A stretch of DNA of 64,000 nucleotides from Peredibacter starrii (GTDB lineage: Bacteria; Bdellovibrionota; Bacteriovoracia; Bacteriovoracales; Bacteriovoracaceae). The notes beneath the pieces are model-generated. The model did not search any database, was not told where the DNA came from, and worked only from the letters and a program-made list of their open reading frames with translations. Shown here piece by piece: positions 7,909 through 37,410 of this stretch. The translations under genes were made by a program, and so were the position numbers. The DNA is taken from positions 3,038,001-3,102,000 of the forward strand of contig NZ_CP139487.1 of the NCBI RefSeq assembly GCF_034259205.1, read 5' to 3'. Every line of letters starts with the position of its first letter. Position 1 is the first letter of the stretch.

Positions 7909-8040
7909 ATGAATAAAATTCTTTTGGCCCTATTTGTTTGTGTATTTTCAGTCGGTGCTCTTGCCTGCGGAGGCAATGGTGCTAAAGACAAAGATGAAGA
8001 GAAAAAGTTATTTGAAACCACGATGATTCGACCGGTTTAA
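7909..8040 (+). CDS. 43 aa exported peptide
   Basis: A short ORF with a very strong ribosome site (GGAGG at 7899-7903) ahead of its ATG. The product begins with a signal peptide, MNKILLALFVCVFSVGALAC, and could be a lipoprotein: the GALAC sequence fits a lipobox with Cys20. After it come only about 23 residues, highly charged (KDKDEEKK) and ending in MIRPV. A TAAGAT -10-like element sits at 7879-7884, about 7 nt upstream of a plausible transcription start. The stop is followed after 7 nt by a strong terminator. Function unknown; small lipoproteins of this type may act in the envelope. Confidence 0.6.
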   Translation: MNKILLALFVCVFSVGALACGGNGAKDKDEEKKLFETTMIRPV

Positions 8041-8047
8041 AATCGAA

Positions 8048-8072
8048 GGGGCCTTTAAGGCCCCTTTTTTTT
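8048..8072. terminator. strong intrinsic terminator (serves + strand; overlaps the end of the S74 gene)
   Basis: GC-rich inverted repeat GGGGCCT / AGGCCCC with a three-base loop, followed by eight T on the plus strand. It terminates the 43 aa peptide gene. The stop codon and last lysine, glycine and proline codons of the minus-strand fibre gene (from 8055) lie inside the hairpin. Confidence 0.85.
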
Positions 8073-11000
8073 GGTCTGGTTTTGTTCAAGCGCATTCAAT
8101 CTTTTCTCAAATATTTCATTCTGTTTTTTAAGAAGCTCGTTCTCTTCTTTGAGAGAAGCGATTTCGCGTTTGAGTTCTTTGCTCTCTGTGAAAAGTTCTT
8201 TAATTGAATTTACCATCGCCCAGAAGATCGGAGTTGTATTAAGGGAGAAGAATCCGTCTTTGTCTTTTTTAACTGCATCCGGAATTTGCTTCTGCACTTC
8301 CTGAGCAATAACTCCGGTGTATTCTTCATCAGGAGAAATGTCTTTCTTGTTACCTTTTTTATAACGGAATTTGATGGTCTCGATGTTGGCAACTTCTTTC
8401 AAACCATACTCATACTTACCAGTCACATCTTTAAGTCTTCTATCAGAAGGCACCACCCAACCTACGTCCCCCCCATTTCGATAAGGAGTTCCAGTGATAC
8501 GAAGATCGCCGGTTACATCTAGTACATAGGCAGGTGAAGTGGTACCAATTCCTACACGTCCGGTAGTATCAATGTTCAAACGGGAAATACCATTCGTCAC
8601 AAGCGACACGTTAGTAGCACCCACACCACCCATTTCGACTTGGTTTAAAGGCGTGTAGTAACCAAGATAACCTTTCTTAGTACTGAACATGATTTGTCCA
8701 TTCACATCCAATTGGGCCCCCGGATTTGAAGTACCAATCCCAACATTTCCGCCGAAAGGCTGAATTGAAAAATTTTTATGTGTGGCCGAATCGGCCGACA
8801 TCAGACCCCAAACATCTTCACCGAGCCATCCAAACTGGATATAATCATTGTTCGCCGAACTTGTACTCATTAAGCGCAAAAGAGCGTTAGCACCAATATT
8901 TGACATTATATTAGGGGCCTGGATCTCCATTTTCGCTCCAGGTGCGGTGGTTCCCACTCCTATGTTACCTAAGCTGTTCGCAATCAACGTCCCTACCGGA
9001 GCACGAATATCAAACCTGTAAGGAATATGTGAAAGAACATTTGCAGAGTCCCTATTTTGAATCTCGAGATTATTGTTATAGTGAACAATGAAGGCCTCAT
9101 TATTTGCACCACCAGTTGTTTCCTCTAATAAAATTCCGGCCGCTGGAGCTTTGATATGCAGAGGTGCCAAAGGAGTTGTTTGACCAATACCCACGTTACC
9201 AGCACCCGTTACATTGAAAAAAGAAGTCCCATTCAAAATGGCATTTAAAAGATAACTACCATTTGAAGTCAGCCCCACATTATCTTTCGCAAGAAACTGC
9301 ACCCCAGTATTTGTAACACCTCCGTCAGTACCACTAATGAAAGCAGCATTGACGTTGGATAGACCATTGAAAGATTTTACTACATGCAAGCGAGACGTAG
9401 GAGCTGCAGTTCCAATTCCGATATCACCGTTCGCTTCAATTCGCATTCTTTCAGTTGTCCCACCTGCTGTCATGTTCGTATGAAATGTAATCGGTGTATT
9501 GGTGAAGGTATCAATTCGAAATGGGTTCGATGAAGATGATTCAAGATAAGTAACTGTGCCACCGGCAGTTGGTCCCCAAGTCCCCATGGTAATCGAGTTA
9601 GTTCCTGCGGCGGCAGTAAAGCCCGTACCACCTGCAGAGTTCGAGTTTGTATTCACCACTCTTCTATTTGTGGTCGTGTTTGAAGTCATATCAATAACAT
9701 TGTTAGCGCCAGGAATACCGCCAATTCCAACGTTACCTACTGATCGATACACATCACTGCCTGATGTCTGCCAAAGATTTACAGCTGCAACAGCGCTGTC
9801 CACGTATTGCTTGTTAGTGACGTCCGTTAAACTCGAAGGAGCGTTGGCATTTCGTAATATACTCGTTCCACTAAATGTAAATGTACCAGCTGCCAGAGAA
9901 TCTCCTGCATTATTCACAGGAGTGAAACCAAGAGCGGTCGTAATATCCGAAGATGAAAGAGAAGACCAAGCAGATGTATTCGCACCACTTGCTTTTAAAA
10001 ACTTACCGGCGTCCCCTGCAACGGGTGAAGGAAGAAGAGAAGTACTGATATCCACAGTCGGGTTACCAGAAACACCGTTACCATTTGTTACCGTAGTTCT
10101 GTTCGTTACTCCTGCAACACTTCTTCCTGTAAATGTATCGGCCGCAGTTTGAACCAAAATGCCATTCGTATTGTAGGCCGCGAGCGAAGTCAAAGTTCCA
10201 TCAGCAGCTTGTTTGTCAGTATCAAGCTCATTTAGCGCAGCTTGAACAGTGGTTGAAGCAATTGATCCTGCAGGAGTGTTCGTTACTAAAGTAGCAGTGT
10301 AATCCCCTGCAGTGGCAGTCACCGCACCAGTTCTTCCAAAAACAGTTGTAATGGGTGAAGCTGTTGGAGTAATCCAAGTCATCACACCGGCCGCACTTGA
10401 AGATAAAACTTGTCCGGCAGTCGGTGCAGTTAATGGAAAAGTATAACTAATGTTCGCTCCCAAAGAAGTTGGTGCTCTTAGGGTAACGTAGTTTGCATTA
10501 TCGGATTTTAAACGAAGAGTTCCGTTAACGGCGATGTTACCAGTAACATCTAATTTCTCTGCCGGAGAACTGTTTCCAATCCCTACACTTCCAAGCGAAG
10601 TAATGATCATCTTCTCCGAGCCATCTGTATCAAAGCGAATATTATTTTCATTGGCCGCGGCCTCAACACGAATTCGCGTTCCGGTATCGCTGTCAGCGAT
10701 AGAATTTGGAACCGGCGTCGCAGGACCACAATTCTTCATAATGCTGGTTACAGTACCGTTGGCATTGATCTGATTGTTTGACCAGTTATCCTGATGGTAG
10801 GCCACAGATGTTCTTGATCCTTTCGAAATCGAAAGATAGTTCATCGTGGTATTAGAATTCATGGTGTTGGAAATATGTTGAATAACATCTGTGCGGATGA
10901 CGTTGGCATTATAAACCACTCCACCGGCAGTGAAGCGATAACGACAACTCATATCGAAATCACTGGTATCCGAAAGAACTTCACTCACCCATGTCCCAGT

Positions 11001-12047
11001 CGCACCGCTACTGACAGAGCTCACCTGATTATCGACATAAAATTTTGTGGCGGCATCTGTGCCTACTGTTGGTTCTGCCAGGCCATTAATTTGATTGTTC
11101 CCCATCGCAATAGCGCCACTCATGGTACCACCCGCGAGAGGAAGTTTTGTGTTATCTACAGAGACATCGGCCACACATGAAAGGGTCACGGTTGGAAGGG
11201 ATGTCAGGGTAAGAACTTGTCCTGCAAAACAACTAGGAAGTGCTGCTGAAAGAATAAGGTCCCAGCTTGTTCCATAGTTCATGGTCGCGAGAGTCCCTAG
11301 ACCTAAATTTGTTCTGGCCCCGGCAGCGGTGTTAGCACCAGTTCCACCTTGAGTAAGTCCTAAATAGGCCAGTTCACTCATCACTCCCGATCCATTGTTA
11401 GCTAAAACATAATTGGGAGTTCCATTCGCAAGTTTTGAACGAGTAATACTTCCGGCCAAATGTGAGTCTGTTACTCCTCCATTTGCAATGGCGATCGTTC
11501 CCGAGTTCGTGATCGTACCACCAGACAATCCAGTTCCCGCAGTAATGTCGGTCACTGTACCACCAGTTGCACCAGTCACAGGTTTTGGTTCCCACTTCGA
11601 ACCTGTCCAAGTGAGAACTTCATTATTGTTTGCATTTAACTTTGAAAGTCCGTGAGCAATCTGTGCAGATGGAACAGCATGGAGCTCTTGAAATGAATAT
11701 GTTTTGCTTGCAGATAAATTAGTCACTCTAATTGCTGGTGCATTTGGGTCAGTGATCGTACCCATGACTTGTGATAGCGTTGGAGTTCCGCAATCGAGTT
11801 CAAGCTTCACATGAAAAACACCATTGGTTAGAGCGACGTTATTGATGTCTTGAGTACATAAAATGATCGAAGTGTTGGCAGTGCTTGCGAGATCAAAACG
11901 AAGATTTACTGGACCAACAACAGGTGAACCGTTGGCATTTACAAGACGACCGGAATAACTGAGAGATTCAGCGAACGCGTGCGGACACATGATTGTCATC
12001 ACGAATGCGAACACGAATAGAAAGTTAAACTTGGAAATAAGTCTCAT
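8055..12047 (-). CDS. giant secreted fibre protein with C-terminal peptidase S74 chaperone domain (fibre 1)
   Basis: A 1330 aa exported protein. A signal peptide (first ~26 residues, ending AFA) precedes a conserved N-terminal domain starting ESLSYSGRLVN, shared with the next two genes. The shaft is low-complexity, rich in Gly, Thr, Ser, Ala and Asn, with recurring blocks of the form GNVGIGTxxP and LPLAGGTMSGAIAMGNNQI, typical of trimeric phage-tail-like fibres. The end is an S74 domain from Ser1201 (SDRRLKDVTGKY ... YTGVIAQEVQKQIPDAV), then a coiled coil (about 1283-1322). In phage fibres this domain trimerises and folds the shaft and then cleaves itself before the Ser. Similar chimeric fibres in Bdellovibrio recognise prey, so an adhesion role is inferred. 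A sigma-28-like promoter lies 11 nt upstream of the ATG. Confidence 0.88.
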   Translation of the reverse strand: MRLISKFNFLFVFAFVMTIMCPHAFAESLSYSGRLVNANGSPVVGPVNLRFDLASTANTSIILCTQDINNVALTNGVFHVKLELDCGTPTLSQVMGTITDPNAPAIRVTNLSASKTYSFQELHAVPSAQIAHGLSKLNANNNEVLTWTGSKWEPKPVTGATGGTVTDITAGTGLSGGTITNSGTIAIANGGVTDSHLAGSITRSKLANGTPNYVLANNGSGVMSELAYLGLTQGGTGANTAAGARTNLGLGTLATMNYGTSWDLILSAALPSCFAGQVLTLTSLPTVTLSCVADVSVDNTKLPLAGGTMSGAIAMGNNQINGLAEPTVGTDAATKFYVDNQVSSVSSGATGTWVSEVLSDTSDFDMSCRYRFTAGGVVYNANVIRTDVIQHISNTMNSNTTMNYLSISKGSRTSVAYHQDNWSNNQINANGTVTSIMKNCGPATPVPNSIADSDTGTRIRVEAAANENNIRFDTDGSEKMIITSLGSVGIGNSSPAEKLDVTGNIAVNGTLRLKSDNANYVTLRAPTSLGANISYTFPLTAPTAGQVLSSSAAGVMTWITPTASPITTVFGRTGAVTATAGDYTATLVTNTPAGSIASTTVQAALNELDTDKQAADGTLTSLAAYNTNGILVQTAADTFTGRSVAGVTNRTTVTNGNGVSGNPTVDISTSLLPSPVAGDAGKFLKASGANTSAWSSLSSSDITTALGFTPVNNAGDSLAAGTFTFSGTSILRNANAPSSLTDVTNKQYVDSAVAAVNLWQTSGSDVYRSVGNVGIGGIPGANNVIDMTSNTTTNRRVVNTNSNSAGGTGFTAAAGTNSITMGTWGPTAGGTVTYLESSSSNPFRIDTFTNTPITFHTNMTAGGTTERMRIEANGDIGIGTAAPTSRLHVVKSFNGLSNVNAAFISGTDGGVTNTGVQFLAKDNVGLTSNGSYLLNAILNGTSFFNVTGAGNVGIGQTTPLAPLHIKAPAAGILLEETTGGANNEAFIVHYNNNLEIQNRDSANVLSHIPYRFDIRAPVGTLIANSLGNIGVGTTAPGAKMEIQAPNIMSNIGANALLRLMSTSSANNDYIQFGWLGEDVWGLMSADSATHKNFSIQPFGGNVGIGTSNPGAQLDVNGQIMFSTKKGYLGYYTPLNQVEMGGVGATNVSLVTNGISRLNIDTTGRVGIGTTSPAYVLDVTGDLRITGTPYRNGGDVGWVVPSDRRLKDVTGKYEYGLKEVANIETIKFRYKKGNKKDISPDEEYTGVIAQEVQKQIPDAVKKDKDGFFSLNTTPIFWAMVNSIKELFTESKELKREIASLKEENELLKKQNEIFEKRLNALEQNQTKKKGP

Positions 12048-12058
12048 ATTCTAAAGAC

Positions 12059-12085
12059 TTATCGACACTTATTAGGATTAAATTA
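12059..12085 (-). promoter_or_regulatory. sigma-28 (FliA)-like promoter of fibre 1
   Basis: On the minus strand the sequence reads TAAT-N15-GTCGATAA, close to the flagellar sigma-28 consensus TAAA-N15-GCCGATAA. The -10 box is at 12059-12066 and the -35 at 12082-12085. The ATG of fibre 1 is only 11 nt after the -10, so the leader would be about 4-5 nt. Related elements precede three other fibre genes at matching positions. Confidence 0.65.
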
Positions 12086-12120
12086 ATGATTTGGAACAGT
12101 CTGGAGCACCGTTAATTCAA

Positions 12121-15100
12121 CTACTTGGCCATTAATTCGTGCTCAATTCGGTCTAGACGGGCCTTCATTTCTGCGTTCTCCCGTTTGAGCTTTTCGATCT
12201 CTTCGGACTTCGCTTTATTCTCTGCCTTGATCGAAGCGATCTCACGCTTCACTTCTTTTGATTCAGAAAAGAGTTCTTTGATCGAATTCACCATGGCCCA
12301 GAAAATCGGAGTTGTGTTGAGTGAGAGAAAACCATCCTTATCTTTTTTTACTGCATCCGGAATTTGTTTTTGAACTTCTTGAGCAATCACGCCAGTGTAC
12401 TCTTCTTTGGATGAAATCTCTTTCTTGTTCCCTTTTTTATAGCGGAATTTTATAGTCTCAAGATTTGCGATCTCTTTCAGACCATACTCATATTTTCCGG
12501 TCACATCTTTTAAACGTCTATCAGAAGGAACGATCCAACCTACATCACCACCATTTCGATAAGGAGCACCTGTGATACGAATATCTCCAGTGATATCTAG
12601 TGTGTATGAAGGGCTGGTATTATTGATACCAACCATCGAATTCGCCGATAACATGAGAGGTGTAGAAATAATTCCTCCAACTCCAGTGTGATCTTGGTAG
12701 AAGTACATACCTCTTGAACCTGCAGTTGAATTCTGTCCAATGGCCCAGCGATTAGTAGCATCAACACCTAGGTTGAGTCCCTTTTGAACCGTGTCCGGGC
12801 CGTAGATATTAACCACCGTTGCACTACTAGCATCACCTTGAATATGAAGATGGCCCTGCGGGATTGTAGTACCAATCCCTACTTTCCCTTCAGAAGTTAG
12901 ACGCATCTTAGGGGTCGCAAGTGTTGAATCAGCAGTGTAGAAATCCATATAGTCGAGTCCATATGTCCCATACATGATGGCTCCACGAATAGCATCGTCA
13001 CGGCCAAAAGCGATCCCAGTTTGAGCATATTCCCCACCGGAACCATAGGCCTGAATAGGATTTGAAATTCTAAGAGCAACTTCATTCAAAGTCGTAGATT
13101 CACCTGTAACCGATTTACTAATATGAAGAGAATGTGATGGAGTCGGAGTTCCAATCCCTACTTTCCCCCCAGACTGAATGGTGAATCTGGTTGTGCAAAC
13201 CTCACCTGCTTCACAAAGCACATCATCATCATCAGGGTCGGTATATTCAATGAAATCTAATCCAGTTCTGGTCAAATATTCGTTGGTACTAGCAATACCC
13301 CAAGAACGTTTCTTTATAGCAGCTGCAGAGTTTTCGGCCTTCATGAGTACACCACTGTAATCACCTGCACTCGTCAACTGAGTAGAGTATCCAGAAGCTG
13401 GTCGTCTCACATCAAGCATCGTGGCGGGAGTTGAGGTCCCTATTCCCACATAACCATTAGAATCGATTCTCATTCTTTCAGGTATCGTGCTTCCACCATT
13501 GGGAGTTGTTCTAAAAATCAAAGCACCCTTTTCTGAACCCGGAGTAACATCTGTTAATGTCGCCGCAAAATCAGCGGCCACTACCCCAGTACCAGAAGAG
13601 TTTGGTAGTTTAAATTGTAATGCAGTTAATTCGTTTGCCGCCGGCGTACCACTGGCATTTACTCTTTCAATCATCATCGGTGCAGCATTCCCACCGGCAG
13701 CAGTCGATTGAGCAACATGCAGAGGTCTTTGTGGAGTGGCCGTCGCGCTGACACCAACTCCAACATAACCAGTTGTATGCATCATGTTTAAGAGTGTTTG
13801 TTTTACAGTAGCATCATCATTGATTGATCGAATCATCATCTTGTCGATACTGTTTACAATTTGGCCTATTCGATTGTTAGCAGAACTACCTGGGGCCACC
13901 ATCATAATGTCGGCCTGGTTCATTCCTTCACCTTCAATGGTTAATCCCCATTTATTCACCGGGCGAAGGATCTTCATTTTCGATTCGATGTTATTAGGTC
14001 CAGTAAACGAGTTGGTTCCTACACTCACTGCCCCGCTATCGTAATAAAGATGTGAACCGTTTTTAAGCCATTGACCAAAAGTTCCAACATAGTTTTGAAC
14101 ATACTGAACGTTGGCAACATCCGTAAGATCAACTCCAGAAGGAGTTGCGGGAATTTTCAAAGAACCTGATACAGAGACGGCACCTGAAATTGTATCAGTG
14201 CCATTTTTAACTAGAAAATTCGTGTCTGCAGTTTTGAGAGCGTTGATCTGCCCCTGAGTTTTATTAACAACGGTTTGTATCGAATCCGCATTCGCAATGA
14301 CTGTATTACTTGGAGTAACCGTTGCAAAAGTTGAAGCAAGAACGTCTGTGATAAATGTCCCCCAGGTCTTGTCACCTTTCCAATATTGAGCGGCAGTTCC
14401 TGCAGTGATTTTTGGTTCTTTATTGCTTAAATCTGTTGTGAGTCCACTGATCTTTGATTGAGCGATGGCCGCAGTTCCCGAGATATCAGCATCAACGATA
14501 GCACCAGCTGCAATTTGAGCATTGGAAATTGTTCCTGATAGATCTCCGCCAACGGCACTTGCCCCAGTGGTCACCGCAGTCCAGCTCAAATTCCCTGCAC
14601 CATCGGTGGCAAGTACATATCCAGCAGTCCCATAAGTCCCTGGTAAATTAAATGTTAAAGTAGATGCAAGTGCGGCCGGAGCTTTTATTTCTACATAGTT
14701 CGCAGTTGTCGATTTCAAACGAATGTTACCATTCAGAGCAATGTTACCATTTACTTCTAATTTTTCTGTCGGATTGAGAACATTGATACCAACATTACCA
14801 CCAAAAAAGTTGAGGTCATCTGCTGAATCCTGATGGAAGGCATAGTTTTTTGTACCACCGGTTTGATCAGCGATTCTCAAACCATACACGGTTGAAATGG
14901 TTCCTGGACTACTATCATTCATCCCACCGATTTCAACAATGTTCACTGTATTGATGTTCCCAGTATAAGAAGCATCAGCATCCACACGGAAGAAGTTACC
15001 GGCCACTCTCCCCGACACGTTAGCAGACGTTGTCTGCAATTTTGGATTTAAAATGTTTCCGTAGATAATCGAAGTAATATCGGCCGACGGTTCTAGCTTC

Positions 15101-16362
15101 GGACTTAATGTGACACCACCAGATCCACTTACGTTAGTACTTAGGATGGGACTTAAAGAAACACCTCTTAAAGTACTTCCATCATTTTGAATTTTAGCGT
15201 CCACCCACATGATGGTGCTATTAGATACTCCGGAGATGTGAAAGTTTGCTACAGGTGTAGACGTCCCTAGTCCCACCTTGCCTGAGTTATAGTAAAGATC
15301 AGACCCATTTTTTGACCAATCTGATGCTCCACTCACCTGCGCATCCACATAGGCCTTATTGGCCGCATCTGTTCCTGCAGTGGGAGCAGCAAGACCAGTA
15401 ATTAGATTATTTCCCATCGCAATGGCGCCACTCATTGTGCCACCACCAAGAGGAAGTTTAGTGGCATCTAGTGAATCATTATCATTCACACATGACCAAA
15501 AAGTTGGCCCTAGATTCATCTGAAGTTTCTGGTGAGAAAGACACATCGGAACTTCACCCGGCATCACTTGATCGGCCCCATAACCAATAGTTGCAACCGC
15601 CGCATCACCTAAGCCAAGATTCGTTCGCGCACCTGCTGCAGTTGATGATCCAGTACCACCATTTAAAACTGGAAGTTGTGACACCTCAGTCATCACACCT
15701 GCACCATTTGTTACAACGACTGAATCTGCAGTTCCTGCTGCGAGTTTTGAACGAGAAATATTGCCCGCGAGATGAGTGTCAGTCACTCCACCATTTGCGA
15801 TTGAGATGGTTCCCGAATTAGTGATTGTGCCACCGGATAAACCCGTTCCGGCTGTAATATCAGTAACTGTGCCACCTGAGGCTCCGGACACAGGTTTTGG
15901 CTCCCATTTAGACCCAGTCCAAGTGAGAACTTCGTTATTGTTCGCATTTAATTTTGAAAGACCATGGGCGATTTGAGCTGAAGGAACCGCATGGAGAGAT
16001 TGAAATGAATAGGCCTTACTGGCAGTTTCATTTGTTACACGAATAGCGGCCGTATCAGGAGAAATGATCCCACCAAGAACTTGCGATAGTGTCGAAGCTC
16101 CGCAATTCAAATCAAGTTTCACATGGAAAACACCATTGGTGAGGGCCACGTTTGTAATTTGTTGAGAACAAAGTACCACTGATGTATCGGCGGTACTCGC
16201 GAGATCAAATTTTAAATTAACGGGACCAACAACTGGTGATCCATTACTGTTAACAAGTCTTCCGGAATAGCTAAGAGATTCTGCGAATGCAGAACAAGTC
16301 AACATGATGACGAACATCAGGCTTCTTAAGCAAAGTTTTACAAAACTAAAATGCATTCCCAT
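12121..16362 (-). CDS. giant secreted fibre protein with C-terminal peptidase S74 chaperone domain (fibre 2)
   Basis: A 1413 aa paralogue of fibre 1. It has a signal peptide (ending SAFA near residue 28) and the same ESLSYSGRLVN N-terminal domain, including the near-invariant HAVPSAQIAHGLSKLNANN and LTWTGSKWEPKPV. The shaft carries GLGTSTPVANFHIS, VGIGTSTPATMLD and similar GIGT blocks. A segment MPGEVPMCLSHQKLQMNLGP is shared with fibre 3. The S74 domain begins at Ser1280 (SDRRLKDVTGKYEYGLKEI) and is nearly identical to that of fibre 1; a long coiled coil follows to the C-terminus. It starts only 21 nt after the fibre 3 stop, with no promoter motif visible between them, so the two are probably cotranscribed. 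An alternative start is Met3. The adhesin role is inferred. Confidence 0.88.
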   Translation of the reverse strand: MGMHFSFVKLCLRSLMFVIMLTCSAFAESLSYSGRLVNSNGSPVVGPVNLKFDLASTADTSVVLCSQQITNVALTNGVFHVKLDLNCGASTLSQVLGGIISPDTAAIRVTNETASKAYSFQSLHAVPSAQIAHGLSKLNANNNEVLTWTGSKWEPKPVSGASGGTVTDITAGTGLSGGTITNSGTISIANGGVTDTHLAGNISRSKLAAGTADSVVVTNGAGVMTEVSQLPVLNGGTGSSTAAGARTNLGLGDAAVATIGYGADQVMPGEVPMCLSHQKLQMNLGPTFWSCVNDNDSLDATKLPLGGGTMSGAIAMGNNLITGLAAPTAGTDAANKAYVDAQVSGASDWSKNGSDLYYNSGKVGLGTSTPVANFHISGVSNSTIMWVDAKIQNDGSTLRGVSLSPILSTNVSGSGGVTLSPKLEPSADITSIIYGNILNPKLQTTSANVSGRVAGNFFRVDADASYTGNINTVNIVEIGGMNDSSPGTISTVYGLRIADQTGGTKNYAFHQDSADDLNFFGGNVGINVLNPTEKLEVNGNIALNGNIRLKSTTANYVEIKAPAALASTLTFNLPGTYGTAGYVLATDGAGNLSWTAVTTGASAVGGDLSGTISNAQIAAGAIVDADISGTAAIAQSKISGLTTDLSNKEPKITAGTAAQYWKGDKTWGTFITDVLASTFATVTPSNTVIANADSIQTVVNKTQGQINALKTADTNFLVKNGTDTISGAVSVSGSLKIPATPSGVDLTDVANVQYVQNYVGTFGQWLKNGSHLYYDSGAVSVGTNSFTGPNNIESKMKILRPVNKWGLTIEGEGMNQADIMMVAPGSSANNRIGQIVNSIDKMMIRSINDDATVKQTLLNMMHTTGYVGVGVSATATPQRPLHVAQSTAAGGNAAPMMIERVNASGTPAANELTALQFKLPNSSGTGVVAADFAATLTDVTPGSEKGALIFRTTPNGGSTIPERMRIDSNGYVGIGTSTPATMLDVRRPASGYSTQLTSAGDYSGVLMKAENSAAAIKKRSWGIASTNEYLTRTGLDFIEYTDPDDDDVLCEAGEVCTTRFTIQSGGKVGIGTPTPSHSLHISKSVTGESTTLNEVALRISNPIQAYGSGGEYAQTGIAFGRDDAIRGAIMYGTYGLDYMDFYTADSTLATPKMRLTSEGKVGIGTTIPQGHLHIQGDASSATVVNIYGPDTVQKGLNLGVDATNRWAIGQNSTAGSRGMYFYQDHTGVGGIISTPLMLSANSMVGINNTSPSYTLDITGDIRITGAPYRNGGDVGWIVPSDRRLKDVTGKYEYGLKEIANLETIKFRYKKGNKKEISSKEEYTGVIAQEVQKQIPDAVKKDKDGFLSLNTTPIFWAMVNSIKELFSESKEVKREIASIKAENKAKSEEIEKLKRENAEMKARLDRIEHELMAK

Positions 16363-16383
16363 AAGGAGTTACATCCCATTTTA

Positions 16384-20175: not shown

Positions 20176-20208
20176 ATAGGGCCTTACTTCCTATGAATTC
20201 CTAAGGAC

Positions 20209-20235
20209 TTATCGACATTTAATAAGAAAATTTTA
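20209..20235 (-). promoter_or_regulatory. sigma-28 (FliA)-like promoter of fibre 3 (and fibre 2)
   Basis: Reads TAAA-N15-GTCGATAA on the minus strand: a perfect -35 core and spacing, with one mismatch in the -10. The -10 is at 20209-20216 and the -35 at 20232-20235. A leader of about 27 nt with a ribosome-binding site would follow. Confidence 0.75.
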
Positions 20236-20288
20236 AAGGATTAAGCTCTGAAAACTATTCCAAATATCGAATACTTACATTTCTGACT

Positions 20289-23200
20289 TTAGTACCCGGA
20301 ATCAGGCTTAGCTTTTGTAACATTACAAATTTTCGCTTTTGGATTGATCTCACATAGAGATTCTTTAAGGAGACGGTTCTCTTCTTTAAGCGAAGCAATT
20401 TCTCTCTCATGCTTTTGAGATTGATTGAAGAGTTCTTTGATCGCTTCAATGATAGGTGCGATTAATTTTGAATAGGCCACAGACATGATGCCGGATTTTT
20501 TATCAGTACTCACGGCTTCAGGAAATAACTTCTGAACTTCCTGAGCGATCACACCCATATCTCTACCTTTCTCGAACTGCAAATCAGGATGCTCCGATTG
20601 GCGCCATTTATAATAGAAACCATTGAGGGCCACTACTCTTTCAAGAGCATCAGGAATTTTCTCGAAGTCTTTTTTGTAGCGGCGATCAGAGAGAGCGTTG
20701 TAGGCACCCACGCCAGCAACAGATCCATTCACATGAAGTTTGTAACCAGGAGCAGTTGTTCCAATCCCAACATCACCAGTAGGAAGAATCGCCATCGGTG
20801 TAATCCAAGCGGTCCCACTCCAATAATTCATGGTTAGGACGTTTCGTAGGGCGACCGTTGGGTAACTATTTCCATTGGCGCCAAATTCCCAACCTTTATT
20901 TCCTAAACTTGGATTTGAAGAGCCCATTGTTTCAAGAGAATTTCCTCTTAACGTAAACAATCTGAAGGCCGTGTATTTTGTATCATCAGAGATAGAGTTA
21001 TTAATAATACTGTTTCCGGCAGAACTCACTTCTAGTGAGGCTTGAGGAGCTGTAGTTCCAATACCAACATTACCGTTGTTATCAATACGCATTCTTTCAT
21101 TATTGGTGATACTTCCGTTTTGAGTTGTTTTAAAAATCATGGCCGTACCTTGGGCAGTATCAGTCCAATCTTCCGTGGCGTCTACTCTAAGTTCTGCTCT
21201 TTGAGTAGGTGAATAACCACTCGCCGATCTTCCCCACCATCCAAAACTTCCTAATACATCGTTAGTCATTGTAGGAGTAGGAATTGCGCCGGTACCTCGT
21301 GCCTGACGAAATGAAATCACAGGTCTGGTACCCGCATTTGTTCCATGACCGTCAATTTGAATTCCTGCATTGGCACCATCTGCACCAATAATATGTAACT
21401 GTCTTCCACCAAAGGCCACGGGAGCGGTTGGAGCATTTTCACTCACAACTAATTTTGAGCCTGGAGCGTTCGTACCAATTCCTACACTGCCTGCAAAATA
21501 GCTCGGAGAAGTTGGATCATTTGCATACACAGACCATTTATTTGTTGCTTCTATATTTCCAAGGTATAACCCATATCCATTCGTGATTGTTCCACTACCG
21601 GGGTTTTGAACGTTACCATATAGCGCATAGCCAGTTGTGATTGTTCCTGCAGCATTGTTATTCCAAACTTCTCCATGTACTCCGTAGGCATTGGTAATAA
21701 CACCGCTACTATTATTATAGGCCTGCCCATACACCCCTTTACCTTGAGTTACAGTACCTGCATCAGAATTAACGGCAGTTGAATAAGTTCCCCACTGATC
21801 TGGTAGAGTCGATGTGGTTGCATTACTCGCAACTGACTTAACACCAAACTGTTGAGTAGCTGACGAAGTTAAAGAAATTGTAGCGTTAGCATCCACCCCA
21901 TACTGAAACGTGACCGAGCCATTCGTTACAGCAGAAGCGCCTCTACTTCCCCACTGGGAAGTTAATAGAGTGCCGGTTCCGTGGCTAGAAACTGCATTCA
22001 CTCCGTATTGGTTATTAATAGTTCCCGCAGCTGATGTGGCCGTGAAACTTCCTCCCATCTGTGTACCGACCAATCCTGGACCGTTATGCATAGCAGCCAC
22101 TATAGCGCCAGTCTGGCCCGTTATATTTCCTGAGCCATTATTAGCAACCAGCGCATGTATCGATCTAGTTTGCTGCATATTAAAGGTTGATGACGCCGGA
22201 ATAATAAAATCAGTCATCAAGCTTGTGTATTGAGCGGTACCTGAAGCAGTAGGAGAAGGTTGAGTTAAAATACTCGCGCTAACGTGTCTTCCGCCACTGC
22301 TTGTGGGAGCATCGTTCACCAAAAGTTGTCTCGGTGTAGTGAATGAAGCGGTTGCAGATGATGTGCCAAGAATCGAGTTTTGAATCGTAAGCTGGCCAAC
22401 CGGTGACGTAGTCCCAACTCCCACCTTCCCGGCCGAATAACTAATATCATTTACGTTTTTGATCCACTGGCCATAGGTCCCGACATAGTTTTGAACAAAC
22501 TGAACGTTGGCCGCATCTGTGAGATCTGCACCTGATGGAGTCGTTGGAATTTTTAAAGCACCAGTGGCCGCATCAATTGTCATGGTACCAGTGACTGTAT
22601 CAGCGCCTGTTTTATTAAGAGTGTTCGAGGCCAGATTGTTAATTTGACCTTGAGTTTTATTAACTACTGTAAGAAGAGAATCACCATTGGCGATCGCCGT
22701 ATTACTCGGAGTGACCGTTGCAAAAGTTGATGCAAGAACATCCGTGATAAATGTTCCCCAACTCTTGTCCCCTTTCAAATACTTTGTGGCATCACTTGTA
22801 CCTGCAAGTTTCGCGAGAGGAATATCACCATCCGCAAGATTTAATTTAGCATATCCAATTGAACCATCCGCAGGTGCCCCACCTGAAACTGTTGACCATG
22901 AAAGATTCCCTGATCCATCAGTGATCAGAGCTTGACCTGAAGTTCCGACACTGGCCGGCAGTCTGAAATTTAAAGTACTACCCAGACCATTAGGTGCTTG
23001 GAGTTCAACATAATTCAAATTATCAGATTTTAAACGTACAGCACCTGTGACAGCGATGTTACCTGCAACAGTGAGCTTTTCATTTGGTGTTGTGGTTCCA
23101 ATGCCGACATCACCTGTAGCATTAATGCGCATTCTTTCAAAAGGTGTAAAAGTATTTCCAACTGTCAGACCAGAGGTCGCAAAGAAAGAAAGATCTCCAG

Positions 23201-24824
23201 TTGGAGCAAAACTGATAATCGAAGACCCCGTCGATTTGGCCACCCAAGTAGGACCTGTACTCGCCGCTCCTTGAGATAGTGTACCGCCACCAGAGTTATT
23301 GGCAGACATATATAGGCCTGTGTCCCCGGCCGCAGAAATGTGAAATTTTGATCCATTACTTGAGGTGTCTCTCAGGTCCAAAAGGTATGCAGGACTTCCC
23401 GTTCCAATCCCCACATTACCAGTTGAGTAATGAATGTCTGAACCCACCGTAGTCCACTGAGAACCAGCACCAACTTTTGAATCAACATAGGCCATCGTCG
23501 CAGCATCACTCGCTGCTGTCGGTGTTCCGAGACCCGTGATTTTATTTCCGCCCATCGCAAGTGCACCACTCATGGTGTCCCCTGCTTTTAGAACATAGTT
23601 TCCTTGTGAAGCTGCGACTACACCAATATTGCCAGTTAATTTATTAAAGGCAGAAAGTACAGAATCTGCTGCTGATACTGCACCAGTTGTTGAACTAAAA
23701 CCTGTTAGTGTTGAACCAAGAACGGCGGAGTTTAAATTCTGCCACGTCTTTGTCCCGCTCCAATATTGAGCAGCGGTGCCCGCAGTGATCTTCGGCTCTT
23801 TATTACTTAGATCAGTAGTAAGATTATTGATCTTTGACTGATCAATCGCCGCAGTCGCGGAGATATCTGCATTACCAATTGATCCGTCAACAATCTTAGA
23901 AGAATCAATCGCACTATTTGCGATTTGGGTATTTGAAATAGAGCCGGCAGTAATCACCGGGGCCGGAACTGATGTTACTTCCCACTTCGACGTTCCAGAA
24001 TTCCATTGAAGAATATCTTGGTCTTGAATTCCTGTCACATCAACATCAGCAATTTCAGATAATTTCGAACCAGTGAGTTTTCCTGCGGCCTTTGTAAGCA
24101 TGCTCCAGGAATAGTCACCTGAAAGAGGAACGACTGCTCCTGTTCTTCCATTGAAGTTAGAAACAGTATTTGTTCCAACTGCGACCTTGCTCCAGTTAGT
24201 CCCGTCCGAGATGACCCAGTCTCCTACATTGTAATTTGTTGAACCAGAACCTAAATCCTGAGTTCCGGCCACTGTAACAATGTAGTAAGTACCTGCAGCA
24301 GCAACTCCAGATGATAAGTTCGGAGTATCAGTACCTGCATCATAGGTTCCCACATAAACTTGGTTTGTCGTAACTGCAGAAGGAACCCAACTCGTTCCAT
24401 TAAAACGTAAGAACTGCCCTGCACTCGCACCCATGTGGTGAAGTTTGGCCGCGGTCACTTGTCCATTTTGAAGTTCAAAAGAAATTGGAAAAGTTGCACT
24501 CGCATTAGCAGAAGAAATAATAAGATTGAGTGACTGCCCAACCAAAAATGTTAGTGCACTCTTGGCGTTTAGAACAATTTTGTTATCACTCTTTGATTCG
24601 ATGGTAAAAACGTGATTAGTGCCACCTTCAATTTTAGCAGTAGTCACTTTACTTAAATTACTTCCACTTACAATCAATTGATCGTTCTGAATTTTCACAT
24701 TACTGATTGAAGGTTTCGTTTCTTGAAAGCTTACGGTGATGTTGCCTTGTAATAGCGAATTATCCTGACATCCCGTCAGTAAAACTGCAGCTACGACAAA
24801 AATAGAGACAATATTGAAACTCAT
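20289..24824 (-). CDS. giant fibre lipoprotein with IPT-like N-terminus and S74 domain (fibre 4)
   Basis: The largest of the five, 1511 aa. The N-terminus is a lipoprotein signal (AAVLLTGC, Cys19), then an IPT/TIG-like beta domain (NVKIQNDQLIVSGSNLSKVTTAKI) and a conserved adaptor (VYVGTYDAGTDTPNL ... NFNGRTGAVVPLSGDYSW). The shaft contains GNVGIGT blocks and, in its middle, a run of degenerate repeats with QWGxxG, QYGV, AYGVHGEVWN, GYALYG and NGYGLYLG spaced about 20-30 residues apart. The S74 domain starts at Ser1379 (SDRRYKKDFEKIPDAL) and is followed by a coiled coil and the tail CEINPKAKIC. Lipidation would anchor the N-terminus to the outer membrane, with the fibre projecting. A sigma-28-like promoter lies 23 nt upstream. 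Confidence 0.88.
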   Translation of the reverse strand: MSFNIVSIFVVAAVLLTGCQDNSLLQGNITVSFQETKPSISNVKIQNDQLIVSGSNLSKVTTAKIEGGTNHVFTIESKSDNKIVLNAKSALTFLVGQSLNLIISSANASATFPISFELQNGQVTAAKLHHMGASAGQFLRFNGTSWVPSAVTTNQVYVGTYDAGTDTPNLSSGVAAAGTYYIVTVAGTQDLGSGSTNYNVGDWVISDGTNWSKVAVGTNTVSNFNGRTGAVVPLSGDYSWSMLTKAAGKLTGSKLSEIADVDVTGIQDQDILQWNSGTSKWEVTSVPAPVITAGSISNTQIANSAIDSSKIVDGSIGNADISATAAIDQSKINNLTTDLSNKEPKITAGTAAQYWSGTKTWQNLNSAVLGSTLTGFSSTTGAVSAADSVLSAFNKLTGNIGVVAASQGNYVLKAGDTMSGALAMGGNKITGLGTPTAASDAATMAYVDSKVGAGSQWTTVGSDIHYSTGNVGIGTGSPAYLLDLRDTSSNGSKFHISAAGDTGLYMSANNSGGGTLSQGAASTGPTWVAKSTGSSIISFAPTGDLSFFATSGLTVGNTFTPFERMRINATGDVGIGTTTPNEKLTVAGNIAVTGAVRLKSDNLNYVELQAPNGLGSTLNFRLPASVGTSGQALITDGSGNLSWSTVSGGAPADGSIGYAKLNLADGDIPLAKLAGTSDATKYLKGDKSWGTFITDVLASTFATVTPSNTAIANGDSLLTVVNKTQGQINNLASNTLNKTGADTVTGTMTIDAATGALKIPTTPSGADLTDAANVQFVQNYVGTYGQWIKNVNDISYSAGKVGVGTTSPVGQLTIQNSILGTSSATASFTTPRQLLVNDAPTSSGGRHVSASILTQPSPTASGTAQYTSLMTDFIIPASSTFNMQQTRSIHALVANNGSGNITGQTGAIVAAMHNGPGLVGTQMGGSFTATSAAGTINNQYGVNAVSSHGTGTLLTSQWGSRGASAVTNGSVTFQYGVDANATISLTSSATQQFGVKSVASNATTSTLPDQWGTYSTAVNSDAGTVTQGKGVYGQAYNNSSGVITNAYGVHGEVWNNNAAGTITTGYALYGNVQNPGSGTITNGYGLYLGNIEATNKWSVYANDPTSPSYFAGSVGIGTNAPGSKLVVSENAPTAPVAFGGRQLHIIGADGANAGIQIDGHGTNAGTRPVISFRQARGTGAIPTPTMTNDVLGSFGWWGRSASGYSPTQRAELRVDATEDWTDTAQGTAMIFKTTQNGSITNNERMRIDNNGNVGIGTTAPQASLEVSSAGNSIINNSISDDTKYTAFRLFTLRGNSLETMGSSNPSLGNKGWEFGANGNSYPTVALRNVLTMNYWSGTAWITPMAILPTGDVGIGTTAPGYKLHVNGSVAGVGAYNALSDRRYKKDFEKIPDALERVVALNGFYYKWRQSEHPDLQFEKGRDMGVIAQEVQKLFPEAVSTDKKSGIMSVAYSKLIAPIIEAIKELFNQSQKHEREIASLKEENRLLKESLCEINPKAKICNVTKAKPDSGY

Positions 24825-24847
24825 AAGAATTCTTAATCCTTACGTAT

Positions 24848-24875
24848 TTATCGACTCTTATTAAACTTTTATTTA
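24848..24875 (-). promoter_or_regulatory. sigma-28 (FliA)-like promoter of fibre 4
   Basis: Minus strand TAAA-N16-GTCGATAA, with the -10 at 24848-24855 and the -35 at 24872-24875. The spacer is one base longer than the consensus. The gene start follows 23 nt after the -10, with AAGGA in the leader. Confidence 0.65.
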
Positions 24876-24913
24876 CAGATATTTAAAAAATCTTAAAAGG
24901 TTTGAATCAGCAC

Positions 24914-27900
24914 TTATTTTTTCTTACAGAATGGGGCCTTAGGATCTTTTCCACAAATATAGGCTTTTAAGGCAGCGTTTTCTTCTTTAACAGAGGCCAC
25001 TTCACGTTTTAAGGCCGTTACCTGACCAAAGAGGTCCTTAATTGCTTCAATGATAGGTGCAATCAATTTTGAATAGGCCACAGACATGATGCCCGATTTT
25101 TTATCTGTGCTCACGGCCTCAGGGAACACCTTCTGAACTTCCTGGGCGATCACACCCATGTCTCTGCCTTTTTCAAACTGCATGTCAGGATGTTCTGATT
25201 GGCGCCATTTATAGTAAAAGCCATTCAGCGCCACCACTCTTTCAAGAGCATCAGGAATTTTCTCGAAGTCTTTTTTGTATCGACGATCTGAAAGAGCGTT
25301 GTAAGCACCTGTTCCTGCCACTGAACCATTCACATGAAGTCTGTAACCGGGAGTTGTTGTTCCAATCCCTACATCTCCGCCTAGAGTTTGAAGACTTAAA
25401 GTCTTTGGAGCCGCAGTAGAATAATCATAAGCTTGAATTAAACCGCTATCAGATACAGTGGTATATTCAAGTTTTAAACCCCTTCCTGCTGAAGCAGCTA
25501 AACCACCACCTGCTGTCTCTCGGATCCAACCTTGGCCAGTGATATCAAGCATCGCTGCGGGATTTGTTGTTCCGATACCTACTTTCCCTTGTGCACCATT
25601 CGAAGCCATATTGAGAATGAGTGATCTAACACCAGTGAAATCTGCCGCAGCAATTCCCATAAATCGATTTGCAGCCGTCGCAGAAGGATTTCCCCAGACA
25701 TTAAAGCTAAGAGGTCCCAAACTTGCATCTGCACCAAGGGCCGCGTAGAACACACCTGTGTTTGTTCCATTGGGAGCAGTGGAATCAAGAACTGAGAGTC
25801 TATGGCTCGGAGTATTTGTTCCAATACCAACGTTTCCAGCCGAATTGATTCTCATCCGTTCCGACATGGTAGCTGTTCCAGCAGTCACAGTTTGAAAAGC
25901 AATAGCTCCACCATATCCAGTGGCAGTTAGATTCTCTTCAGCATAAGCTCGTATTCTTGCTGAAGAATCAGGAGCTACAACTCCAGCATCTGTGAATCCA
26001 ATAAAATTAAGATCGCCCAAAGCATCGTTGTTCAGCGTTTGAGTTCGGGCCGCACTAGTCCCACGAGATTTCGAAAAGGTAATTCCATAAGCACCAGAGT
26101 TGTTTCTGGCCGCATCGATCTTCATCTCTTTAAAAGTAGTTCCTTCCGAGAACATATGAAGGAATGAAGTTGGTGAGTTGGTCCCAATCCCTATATTCCC
26201 AGTGCTACCATCAATCATGAATTTTGGAATGCCACTTAATGCGGTTGAACCAGCATAGAATTTTATCCCGCCAGATTGATTATTGATGATGTTAAAATTT
26301 TTACCTGTCGAAGTTCCGCCGGAATTGTAAATGTATGAGTCACCAGGGGAACCATAACCTAAATTAGTATTAGAAGTTCCAAGGATACCCAGGGCAATCG
26401 AGTTCTTTTCATTGCTTGCAAAAAGTTGAGTATTAGTTGTGGTCCCAGTAGCGTGAGTATTAAAAATACCCATTTTCGTAATGGCGTCTGCTTCGGTATT
26501 CACTTCAAGATGATGATTCGGAGCTGTGGTCCCAATTCCGGTATAACCATTAGGTAGAAATGTCATTCTCGGAGTTGATTGAACCATTAAATGAAGAGGT
26601 ACCGCAGTTGACGTACCAACTAACATATTCGCCGATGGTGAACCGCTGTGTGCTCTTAAAGTTACTGAGTCCGCCTTCGGAACTGTTCCCCAGTTACCAG
26701 GGAATGTACTTGAAAAAGCCTCAACCCCAATACCTGCGCCATCTGAGACTGCATTCAAGGTGGAAGAAGCGGCAGTACCGGTACTTGTATTCTCGACCTG
26801 CGCAATGATGAGGCCGTCTTGTGAATCTTTAATATGTAATCTAGCAATCGGTGCATTAGTTCCAATTCCTACATTACCACCATTGTAATAAATGTCTGGA
26901 CCATTTTTATTCCACTTCCCAAATGTATCAACATAGTTTTGAACATATTGAACGTTGGCCGCATCCGTAAGATCTATACCAGATGGAGTCGCTGGAATTT
27001 TAAGAGCACCAGTTGCTGCATTAATGGTAAGTGTACCTGTAATAGTATCAGTACCTGTTTTGTTCAATGAATTAGAGGCAAGATTACTAATTTGCCCTTG
27101 AGTCTTATTCACAATTGTTTGAAGTGAATCACCATTTGCAATGATAGTATTGCTTGGAGTAACTGTGGCAAAAGTAGAAGCTAAAACATCTGTAATAAAT
27201 GTTCCCCAAGTTTTGTCACCTTTCAGGTATTTTGTTGCATCACTTGCACCCGCTAATTTCTCTAGTGTGATTGACCCATCTGCAGGAGTTCCACTTGAAA
27301 CAGTTGACCAAGAAAGATTACCAGCTCCATCTGTGATGAGCGCTTGCCCAGTTGTTCCATTAGAGGCCGGAAGTCTGAAACTTAAATTACTACCAAGTCC
27401 CGCTGGAGCGAGAAGTTCAACATAATTCACAGTATCCGATTTCATACGAACACCACCGGAAAGAGCGACATTACCAATGACGCTTAATTTATCTAGTGGA
27501 GTTGCTGTCCCGATCCCAACATCACCTGCTGATGTAATGGTCATCTTGACTGTGGCACTTTCTGAATTTGCGGCAGTGTAAAAACCTAGTTTAGAACTGG
27601 CCTTTTGATCGCCATCGACGGCTTCAACCTGTGCGATGATTTGACTGAGGATGAGACTTGTATCCGCAGTGTTTGTATTGTTTCGAGTCAGACCTCTAAA
27701 ACGAAGTTGTCCCAAATTATCTCCAACCTGAACCTTCGTTTCACTTCCTGCTGTTCCACGCGATCTAGTTAGACTTAAAAATGGTGGATGTAGATCTGAC
27801 ACTCGATGAACTGTGGCCCCAACACTACCTTCGCCTTTTAAGTGAAGCATTGATTCAGCAGTGGTAGTACCAATGACAACATTCCCTGCCGAGTATTGGA

Positions 27901-29284
27901 TATCAGAACCAACCGTCGTCCATTGAGACGCCGTACCTGCTTTGGTATCCACATAGTCTTTAGTGGCAGCATCTGTGCCTGCAGTTGGAGTAGCAAGACC
28001 CGTGATTTTATTATTTCCCATGGCAAGAGGCCCACTCATCGTGTCCCCTGCTTTTAAAACATAGTTTGCTTGTGAGGCCGTTGCGATACCAATATTGCCT
28101 GATAATTTATTGAATGCTGAAAGAACTGTATCGGCCGCAGTGATCGCACCAGTTGTCGAACTGAACCCTGTTAATGTAGATCCCAAAACGGCAGGATTTA
28201 AATTCTGCCAGGTCTTTGTACCACTCCAATATTGAGCGGCAGTGCCGGCCGTAATTTTTGGCTCTTTATTCCCTAGATCAGTAGTAAGATTACTAATTTT
28301 TGCTTGATCAATCGCTGCTGTCGCTGAGATATCAACATTAACAATTGTCCCATCAACGATCTTATTAGAGTCAACTGCACTATTCGCAATTTGAGTATTT
28401 GTAATCGAGCCTGCTGTAATGACTGGAACTGGAACCGGAGTTACTTCCCATTTTGATGTTCCCGCATTCCACTGAAGGATATCTTCGTCTTGAATACCTG
28501 TCACATCTACGTCGGCGATCTCTTGAAGTTTAGAGCCAGTCAGTTTTCCTGCGGCCTTCGTTAACATCGACCAAGAGTAGTCCCCTGATAGTGGAACAAC
28601 TGCACCGGTTCGACCGTTGAAGTTAGAAACAGTATTTGTTCCAACTGCAACCTTACTCCAGTTAGTTCCATCAGAAATGACCCAGTCACCAACATCAAAG
28701 TTCATAATACCAGAACCTAAATCCTGAGAGCCCGCGGTTGTGACAATATAGTAAGCTCCAGCTGCGGCCACACCACCTGATAAATTTGGAGTATCAGTAG
28801 TTGCATTATAAGTTCCAACATAGACCTGATTCGTTGAAATCGAAGCTGGTGCCCAAGTTGTCCCATTGAACTGTAGGAAGTCACCGTTGGAAGCATTCAT
28901 ATGATGGAGCTTGGCTGCAGTCACTTGTCCGTTTTGTAGATCGAAAGTAAATGGGAAGGTTGCTGAAGCACTAGCACTTGAAATGATAAGTTCAAAAGTT
29001 TGCCCGACTATAAAACTAAGAGCGCTCTTTGCATTCAGAACTAATTTGTCAGAGGTCTTTGATTCAATCTGAAAGTCATGGGCCCCAACCTTCGCAGTTG
29101 TTACACTGTCCAGGTGACTTCCAGAAACTATGATCTGATCATTTTGAATTTTTACTTGGTTGATGACAGGCTTGTTATTCTTCTCTTTCACATTCACTAG
29201 AATGTTACTACCCAAAATGTCGCCTACCTGATTACAGGCCGTGGACAGCACTAAAAGAATGAGTAGAGTTGAGAGACCTTTCAT
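24914..29284 (-). CDS. giant fibre lipoprotein with IPT-like N-terminus and S74 domain (fibre 5)
   Basis: A 1456 aa paralogue of fibre 4. A lipoprotein-type signal ends at LSTAC (Cys17); the -3 residue is Ser, so the lipobox is not classical. An IPT/TIG-like domain follows (QVKIQNDQIIVSGSHLDSVTTA), with the same VYVGTYNATTDTPNLSGG adaptor. The shaft has repeated GNVGIGTxxP, KYLKGDKTWGTFITDVLAST and NKTQGQI blocks that also occur in fibres 2, 3 and 4. The S74 domain begins at Ser1332 (SDRRYKKDFEKIPDALERV), nearly identical to fibre 4, and the protein ends YICGKDPKAPFCKKK. It is the most upstream gene of the array, with its own sigma-28-like promoter and a leader of about 45 nt. The fold and fibre nature follow from S74 family knowledge; prey binding is inferred. 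Confidence 0.88.
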   Translation of the reverse strand: MKGLSTLLILLVLSTACNQVGDILGSNILVNVKEKNNKPVINQVKIQNDQIIVSGSHLDSVTTAKVGAHDFQIESKTSDKLVLNAKSALSFIVGQTFELIISSASASATFPFTFDLQNGQVTAAKLHHMNASNGDFLQFNGTTWAPASISTNQVYVGTYNATTDTPNLSGGVAAAGAYYIVTTAGSQDLGSGIMNFDVGDWVISDGTNWSKVAVGTNTVSNFNGRTGAVVPLSGDYSWSMLTKAAGKLTGSKLQEIADVDVTGIQDEDILQWNAGTSKWEVTPVPVPVITAGSITNTQIANSAVDSNKIVDGTIVNVDISATAAIDQAKISNLTTDLGNKEPKITAGTAAQYWSGTKTWQNLNPAVLGSTLTGFSSTTGAITAADTVLSAFNKLSGNIGIATASQANYVLKAGDTMSGPLAMGNNKITGLATPTAGTDAATKDYVDTKAGTASQWTTVGSDIQYSAGNVVIGTTTAESMLHLKGEGSVGATVHRVSDLHPPFLSLTRSRGTAGSETKVQVGDNLGQLRFRGLTRNNTNTADTSLILSQIIAQVEAVDGDQKASSKLGFYTAANSESATVKMTITSAGDVGIGTATPLDKLSVIGNVALSGGVRMKSDTVNYVELLAPAGLGSNLSFRLPASNGTTGQALITDGAGNLSWSTVSSGTPADGSITLEKLAGASDATKYLKGDKTWGTFITDVLASTFATVTPSNTIIANGDSLQTIVNKTQGQISNLASNSLNKTGTDTITGTLTINAATGALKIPATPSGIDLTDAANVQYVQNYVDTFGKWNKNGPDIYYNGGNVGIGTNAPIARLHIKDSQDGLIIAQVENTSTGTAASSTLNAVSDGAGIGVEAFSSTFPGNWGTVPKADSVTLRAHSGSPSANMLVGTSTAVPLHLMVQSTPRMTFLPNGYTGIGTTAPNHHLEVNTEADAITKMGIFNTHATGTTTNTQLFASNEKNSIALGILGTSNTNLGYGSPGDSYIYNSGGTSTGKNFNIINNQSGGIKFYAGSTALSGIPKFMIDGSTGNIGIGTNSPTSFLHMFSEGTTFKEMKIDAARNNSGAYGITFSKSRGTSAARTQTLNNDALGDLNFIGFTDAGVVAPDSSARIRAYAEENLTATGYGGAIAFQTVTAGTATMSERMRINSAGNVGIGTNTPSHRLSVLDSTAPNGTNTGVFYAALGADASLGPLSFNVWGNPSATAANRFMGIAAADFTGVRSLILNMASNGAQGKVGIGTTNPAAMLDITGQGWIRETAGGGLAASAGRGLKLEYTTVSDSGLIQAYDYSTAAPKTLSLQTLGGDVGIGTTTPGYRLHVNGSVAGTGAYNALSDRRYKKDFEKIPDALERVVALNGFYYKWRQSEHPDMQFEKGRDMGVIAQEVQKVFPEAVSTDKKSGIMSVAYSKLIAPIIEAIKDLFGQVTALKREVASVKEENAALKAYICGKDPKAPFCKKK

Positions 29285-37202: not shown

Positions 37203-37329
37203 CGGATATAACTAATAATAATGCGGGCAAAGGGTACTACTTGCAAGTGGGGAAAACTCTCCAGTCCTCCTTTAGATAACCCTCCAAAACCACATTTATT
37301 TATATGCTAACTGGAAAAAATTCCCTGCT

Positions 37330-37360
37330 TTGGCCATCTTTTTCCCTCTGGTGCTATAAT
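37330..37360 (+). promoter_or_regulatory. strong extended -10 promoter
   Basis: A perfect TATAAT at 37355-37360 is preceded by TGC, giving the extended -10 form TGnTATAAT. A weak -35 TTGGCC is at 37330-37335 (19 nt spacer). The direct repeat GGTCCTA at 37361-37367 and 37374-37380 lies around the expected start site and could be an operator. Transcription would run into a leader of nearly 200 nt before the next gene. Confidence 0.65.
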
Positions 37361-37410
37361 GGTCCTATACGACGGTCCTACCCAAAATTGCCCTCAAGGG
37401 AAGATGAGTG

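Follow-up and report, generated by a model that had tools for sequence, protein, structure and literature searches.

The S74 domain assists the trimerization of beta-helical fibers and then cuts itself off. Fibers of the mosaic adhesive trimer (MAT) kind were described in Bdellovibrio bacteriovorus HD100, which has 13 S74 genes and in which a base is conserved in all 21 MAT members (Caulton et al. 2024, PMC10769870). The same work located the fibers at the surface of attack-phase cells, reported self-cleavage for one S74 member and prey glycan binding for one tip, and mostly saw no predation phenotype in single deletions; what the base binds on the predator surface was left open. Here, we analyzed five tandem fiber genes (F1 to F5) in a 64,000-nucleotide stretch of the Peredibacter starrii genome (contig NZ_CP139487.1, positions 3,038,001 to 3,102,000), which we refer to as the window. 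The organism is related to the predatory bacterium Bacteriovorax. Judging from their sequences, the five fibers seem to belong to or derive from the MAT fibers by which Bdellovibrio recognizes prey, and two of the five have a putative lipoprotein base in place of the MAT base.

Five tandem fiber genes with two kinds of base

An earlier note on this DNA had claimed five consecutive genes of 1263-1511 aa, each encoding an export signal, a GNVGIGT-type repeat shaft, and a C-terminal S74 domain with the motif SDRRxK or SDIRFK. The open reading frame (ORF) coordinates agreed with this layout (Table 1): all five genes were on the minus strand, with intergenic gaps of 73, 21, 113, and 89 bp in order from F1 to F5. 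The S74 domains were also borne out, as Peptidase_S74 (PF13884) exceeded its Pfam cutoff in all five proteins (E values of 1.5e-9 to 1.3e-17), and the SDxxxK motifs were SDRRLK in F1 and F2, SDIRFK in F3, and SDRRYK in F4 and F5. No other family reached its cutoff in the Pfam scan of F1 to F5. Each S74 domain was accompanied by a coiled-coil-like tail, and the shaft repeat corresponded to a 48-nt unit, encoding a VGIGT-type repeat, that was present in 14 copies across the array. Because the genome has 19 S74 domains and five of them close the five giant ORFs of the array in frame, it was concluded that the array did not arise by chance. Trimeric autotransporter adhesins were considered as well and rejected, since there was no YadA-type C-terminal anchor and Pfam gave only S74 above the cutoff at the C-terminal ends.

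Export signals were found in all five proteins, as claimed, but they were of two kinds, a difference that the note had missed. F1 to F3 had a Sec signal ending in AFA/ES, and F4 and F5 had lipoboxes (LLTG/C and LSTA/C, respectively).

In the case of F1 to F3, the Sec signal was followed directly by a conserved base of ~130 aa that was predicted to be beta-rich and opened with SLSYSGRLVN, which is the arrangement found in MAT proteins. We called this the A-type base and compared it with genome G105, which we take to be B. bacteriovorus HD100. G105 contained 13 S74 genes, the same number as reported for HD100 (PMC10769870), and the A-type profile had N-terminal matches in at least 13 of its ORFs. 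An hhalign comparison of the A-type base with 13 HD100 MAT bases yielded an E value of 4.9e-10 and a probability of 96.6% over 128 columns, with an HD100 profile made from the first 170 residues of 13 genes that had been selected by the A-type profile itself. The A-type base was therefore taken to be the one reported to be shared by all 21 HD100 members, and F1 to F3 had all of the MAT family features that we tested. Within the source genome, 11 of the 12 A-type bases formed one supported clade (97/92), which indicated that the repertoire grew or was homogenized within the lineage; a large lineage-specific expansion of this kind is expected if repertoires track local prey. The F1 base was sister to the base of a non-S74 fiber elsewhere in the source genome. 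We also noted a 3685-aa fiber with a MAT-like base and an S74 domain in the genus of HD100 (L078, G160:C2:175500-190500), which was far longer than the others.

The bases of F4 and F5 were different, and the earlier claim that the five fibers were of one kind had to be dropped. Specifically, these two proteins had a lipobox followed by an unrelated (L-type) base where the MAT base would be. The hhalign comparison of the L-type base with the HD100 MAT bases detected no relation (probability of 0.3%, E value of 0.2), and the L-type and A-type bases shared only a 31-residue shaft start. The lipobox Cys after the signal sequence was invariant in all 16 L-type relatives collected, and residue +2 was Q, N, E, K, L, or I and never Asp, which would permit outer-membrane sorting by the Escherichia coli rule. 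Thus, F4 and F5 are predicted lipoproteins. The L-type lipobox and base were not found in HD100 and 9 other Bdellovibrio genomes, where the L-type profile matched only at shaft positions 123-199, plus one weak match from position 91. The monomer model of the L-type base contained a confident all-beta core (residues 39-114, predicted local distance difference test [pLDDT] score of 80-96), and the best fold matches were immunoglobulin (Ig)/TIG-like domains, including those of surface glycan-binding proteins; no family reached its cutoff in a Pfam search of this base. The model weakly suggested an Ig/TIG-like fold. Because the MAT base feature fails in F4 and F5 and the shaft, S74, and tip modules are shared, we refer to these two proteins as MAT-like, lipoprotein-anchored fibers.

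Several L-type fibers in other loci and genomes had unusual layouts. One was split into two ORFs of 884 and 612 aa (L052:3484-7954, G003:C1:1129483-1133953), and genome G012 had a single ORF of 1483 aa; the split could be due to a frameshift, phase variation, or an assembly error. Another lay in two overlapping frames of 671 and 371 aa with an S74 domain that had no SDxxxK motif (L047, G000:C1:1532562-1535557) and is probably a decaying copy. Two fibers of ~1700 aa in G004 (L036 and L037) started with a different N-terminus, and the L-type match came after it, at residues 177-292; this layout suggests that further kinds of base exist.

Exchange of shaft, tip, and S74 modules

To compare modules, the fibers were cut into 100-residue pieces and matched to ORFs collected from the genus. 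The pieces revealed a common order of base and proximal shaft, variable stretch, conserved mid-shaft, distal stretch, and S74 end. The base and proximal shaft were mostly 70-97% identical to paralogues, and the distal stretches (tips) matched few of the collected ORFs or none, so the array fibers had the diversified tip and conserved base end of MAT fibers. Different pieces of one fiber had different nearest kin. For example, the first 1000 bp of F2 were F3-like (80% DNA identity), but its S74 end was F1-like (79% DNA identity) and had no DNA similarity to F3.

Similar results were observed across the two kinds of base. The F3 mid-shaft was 85% identical in amino acid sequence to that of an L-type fiber at 3954 kb of the source genome, and in the mid-shaft tree the modules of F2 and F3, which have A-type bases, nested within the L-type set. 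A single L-type clade for this module was rejected (approximately unbiased test, P of 1.15e-10). Mapping the four base labels onto the S74 tree took 10 changes, compared with a possible minimum of 3. These comparisons argue that shaft and S74 modules have been exchanged between A-type and L-type bases.

The array sequences also matched several solved MAT tips (8ond, 8ol4, 8oml, and 8on4). The strongest match was between F5 and Bd2133 (8ond), which were 51% identical over 147 residues and come from different families, with unrelated bases. A phage source of the tips was rejected, as the F5 tip had no phage match and the F4 tip had only a 47-residue match.

A separate group of five S74-ended proteins (376-528 aa) had a type-IV-pilin-like N-terminus, namely G[FIM]xLxE/Q plus a hydrophobic stretch, and one of them passed the Pfam N_methyl cutoff. 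The genes were located elsewhere in the source genome, at L048:2044-6769 (G000:C1:349043-353768), G000:C1:506575-507705, and G000:C1:913165-914751; three of the five formed a tandem set immediately after an ftsZ-like gene, and parts of the proteins recurred in relatives G012 and G022. The pilin-like N-terminus could serve S74 tips as a third kind of anchor.

Insertion between hemE and a secretion ATPase gene

The source genome, a single contig of 4,153,408 bp, contained 12 A-type and 8 L-type fibers, counting those with and without S74. In all 11 same-genus genomes examined, hemE and the convergent secretion ATPase gene were separated by 0-0.3 kb, and none of F1 to F5 or the cupin-GNAT gene was found at this site. 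In the window, ~22.4 kb carrying F1 to F5 and the cupin-GNAT gene separated the same conserved flanks. Thus, the array and the cupin-GNAT gene read as a lineage-specific insertion at a site that is empty in relatives, which agreed with the earlier description of the array as an accessory system. Neither a flanking repeat nor a tRNA turned up at the insertion; searching the window with Rfam and for tRNAs gave nothing, so a tRNA target for the insertion was not indicated. Tandem fiber arrays as such are ordinary, and three fiber genes in a row were present in several Bdellovibrio and Bacteriovoracaceae genomes.

The kinship to Bdellovibrio fibers asserted in the earlier note held for the base-domain profile, the tip homology, and the S74 domain. 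The nearest named kin, however, were Bacteriovoracaceae: the contigs with the closest relatives of the F4 and F5 base were from 'Bacteriovoracaceae bacterium' UBA4096, UBA4097, and RX1_metabat.bin.2, which belong to the same genus as the window. Bdellovibrio, including HD100, belongs to another family of the same phylum.

Two other differences from relatives were seen in the window. At 35652-37734, ORFs were separated by 0.5 kb, and their homologues in L001, L005, L008, L010, L015, L017, and L018 were ~4 kb apart; a gene was either gained in those relatives or lost in the window. At 54497-55309, a putative IS3-family transposase ORF had no match at that place in relatives.

Table 1. Coordinates of the fiber genes, their modules, and flanking features in the window
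Feature	Position	Strand	Description
F1	8055-12047	minus	1330 aa; Sec signal, MAT-type (A) base, shaft, S74
F2	12121-16362	minus	1413 aa; A-type base; base and proximal shaft F3-like, S74 F1-like (91% aa identity)
F3	16384-20175	minus	1263 aa; A-type base, L-type mid-shaft module, S74 of another branch (SDIRFK)
F4	20289-24824	minus	1511 aa; predicted lipoprotein (L) base, shaft, S74
F5	24914-29284	minus	1456 aa; predicted lipoprotein (L) base, tip segment resembling Bd2133, S74
A-type (MAT) base of F1	11598-11969	minus	
A-type (MAT) base of F2	15907-16281	minus	
A-type (MAT) base of F3	19720-20094	minus	
L-type base of F4	24387-24770	minus	Lipobox Cys19, then putative Ig/TIG-like domain
L-type base of F5	28847-29236	minus	Lipobox Cys17, then putative Ig/TIG-like domain
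Shared mid-shaft module in F2	14083-14397	minus	
Shared mid-shaft module in F3	18031-18354	minus	
Shared mid-shaft module in F4	22479-22793	minus	
Shared mid-shaft module in F5	26930-27241	minus	
F5 tip segment	26150-26596	minus	Residues 897-1045; 51% identical to solved Bd2133 tip (8ond)
S74 domain of F1	8268-8447	minus	Pfam
S74 domain of F2	12346-12525	minus	Pfam
S74 domain of F3	16633-16800	minus	Pfam
S74 domain of F4	20511-20690	minus	Pfam
S74 domain of F5	25112-25291	minus	Pfam
hemE	6795-7817	plus	Left flank
Small conserved ORF	7909-8040	plus	Left flank; 43 aa, signal-bearing; also at empty site in several relatives
Terminator	8045-8067		After 43-aa ORF; also at empty site in several relatives
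Cupin + GNAT acetyltransferase gene	29421-30464	minus	On insertion, between F5 and ATPase gene
Type II/IV secretion ATPase gene	30464-31495	minus	Right flank; TadA/CpaF-like, T2SSE; adjoins hemE in relatives; stop at 30464

Proposed mechanism and alternatives

The domains, motifs, insertion, module sharing, and base difference are read directly from the sequence. Together, they suggested that the array encodes five homotrimeric surface fibers of the MAT kind, with two interchangeable bases and with tips that are moved by recombination through the shaft and S74 modules. We place the probability of this reading at roughly 0.7. By analogy with the described fibers, F1 to F5 may trimerize, cleave themselves, be exposed on the cell surface, and bind prey. 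The array would have been acquired or amplified in this lineage and inserted between hemE and the secretion ATPase gene. Each chain would be exported by Sec and would fold as a trimer along the GNVGIGT-repeat shaft, aided by the C-terminal S74 domain. The SDxxxK residues were conserved in all five proteins, and S74 would presumably cut itself off at the serine of this motif, exposing the variable distal tip, which could then bind prey or other surfaces. F1 to F3 would be held by the MAT base, which is thought to dock on a surface partner, and F4 and F5, as lipoproteins of the outer membrane whose base is Ig/TIG-like, would be held by a lipid anchor. Tips would shift between the bases by homologous recombination through the conserved shaft and S74 modules.

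Several points weigh against this reading. The weakest step is the one from lipoprotein to surface-exposed lipoprotein, as a lipidated protein need not be displayed on the outer face. The model of the L-type base was of medium confidence (pLDDT of 63 overall), its Foldseek matches were weak (best E value of 0.012), and the structure predictions covered monomers of short stretches. Because the shaft modules consist of repeats, the module tree may in part rest on comparisons between paralogous repeats. In addition, the predatory habit of this organism is only an assumption, and 11 of 26 genus genomes had no S74 gene, some of them at 91-94% estimated completeness.

The last two points bear on the strongest alternative, namely that a nonpredatory or facultative Bacteriovoracaceae bacterium uses the proteins as general adhesins, on surfaces, in aggregates, or in biofilm, and that they have no role in prey selection. 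S74 genes ranged from 0 to 19 among the 26 genus members searched, with the highest number in the source genome. Because several well-assembled genus genomes were without one, the fibers did not seem to be a general requirement of the genus, and the lack of a predation phenotype in most single deletions in B. bacteriovorus (PMC10769870) is in line with a general adhesin as well. However, the base, shaft, S74 domain, and one tip segment are common with MAT fibers, which were located on predators and include one member that binds prey glycans (PMC10769870), and we consider the general-adhesin explanation unlikely. A second alternative treats the L-type fibers as a family of separate origin, which arrived at this shaft and S74 domain convergently, by capture from phages, and exchanged nothing with MAT fibers. 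The unrelated bases and the short common shaft start would fit this idea, but the 85% identity of the F3 mid-shaft to an L-type fiber and the rejection of an L-only clade are too close a relationship for separate capture, which makes it highly improbable. Finally, although F1 to F5 all match PHROG tail-fiber profiles through the shaft and S74 and F1 matches phage tail fibers by tblastn, prophage remains or a phage-tail-like particle were rejected as scarcely credible because all five proteins start with export signals that phage tail fibers do not have and the flanks, hemE and the secretion ATPase gene, include no structural phage genes, and also in view of bases that match bacterial families and five intact, full-length genes in tandem.

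If the array does encode MAT-kind fibers with two bases, the base swap places otherwise common shafts and S74 domains on two anchors, which would provide a natural test of how a fiber is retained on the cell. More tentatively, and with somewhat more doubt than belief on our part, S74-capped shafts and tips may pass freely between three or more anchors within a single genome (the MAT base, the lipoprotein Ig/TIG base, and type-IV-pilin-like N-termini). Anchor exchange, besides tip exchange, might then be a general way for predators to set where and when a tip is shown.

Comparison with known systems

A literature search found no paper on MAT fibers of Bacteriovorax; the supplementary tables of PMC10769870, which were outside the search, may list Bacteriovoracaceae members. 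Relative to the literature covered, both the lipoprotein base and the swapping of this base with the MAT base appear to be new. Anchor exchange is part of the novelty because two of the five fibers have the lipoprotein base and not the MAT base. The MAT kind would also be extended to a second predator-containing family of the phylum.

The S74 subgroup of HD100 MAT fibers (e.g., Bd3182) is the closest to the array. It has the Sec signal, the repeat shaft, the SDxxxK S74 domain, and a base homologous to that of F1 to F3, and its members likewise have variable tips, are ~1000-1500 aa in length, and occur many per genome, with some side by side. The array differs in that it is found in Bacteriovoracaceae, has a far-diverged base, and has five genes on one lineage-specific insertion, and in that F4 and F5 have the putative lipoprotein Ig/TIG-like domain in place of the MAT base. 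In the case of Bd2133 (NS74 MAT, 8ond), the likeness is between its first solved beta-helix segment and F5 residues 897-1045; however, Bd2133 ends in a beta-sandwich and not in S74, and it is not described as a lipoprotein.

The remaining systems are more distant. Phage S74 tail fibers and endosialidases (PHROG, PDB 6f45) share the S74 chaperone and shaft repeats with the array, but phage fibers have a different base and no export signal, and the array has no virion context. The SGBP-B proteins of Bacteroidetes are lipoproteins. These surface glycan-binding proteins (7k44) have Ig-like domains and were the top hit, albeit a weak one, when the fold of the L-type base was compared; they have no fiber and no S74 domain, and their likeness to F4 and F5 is one of fold only.

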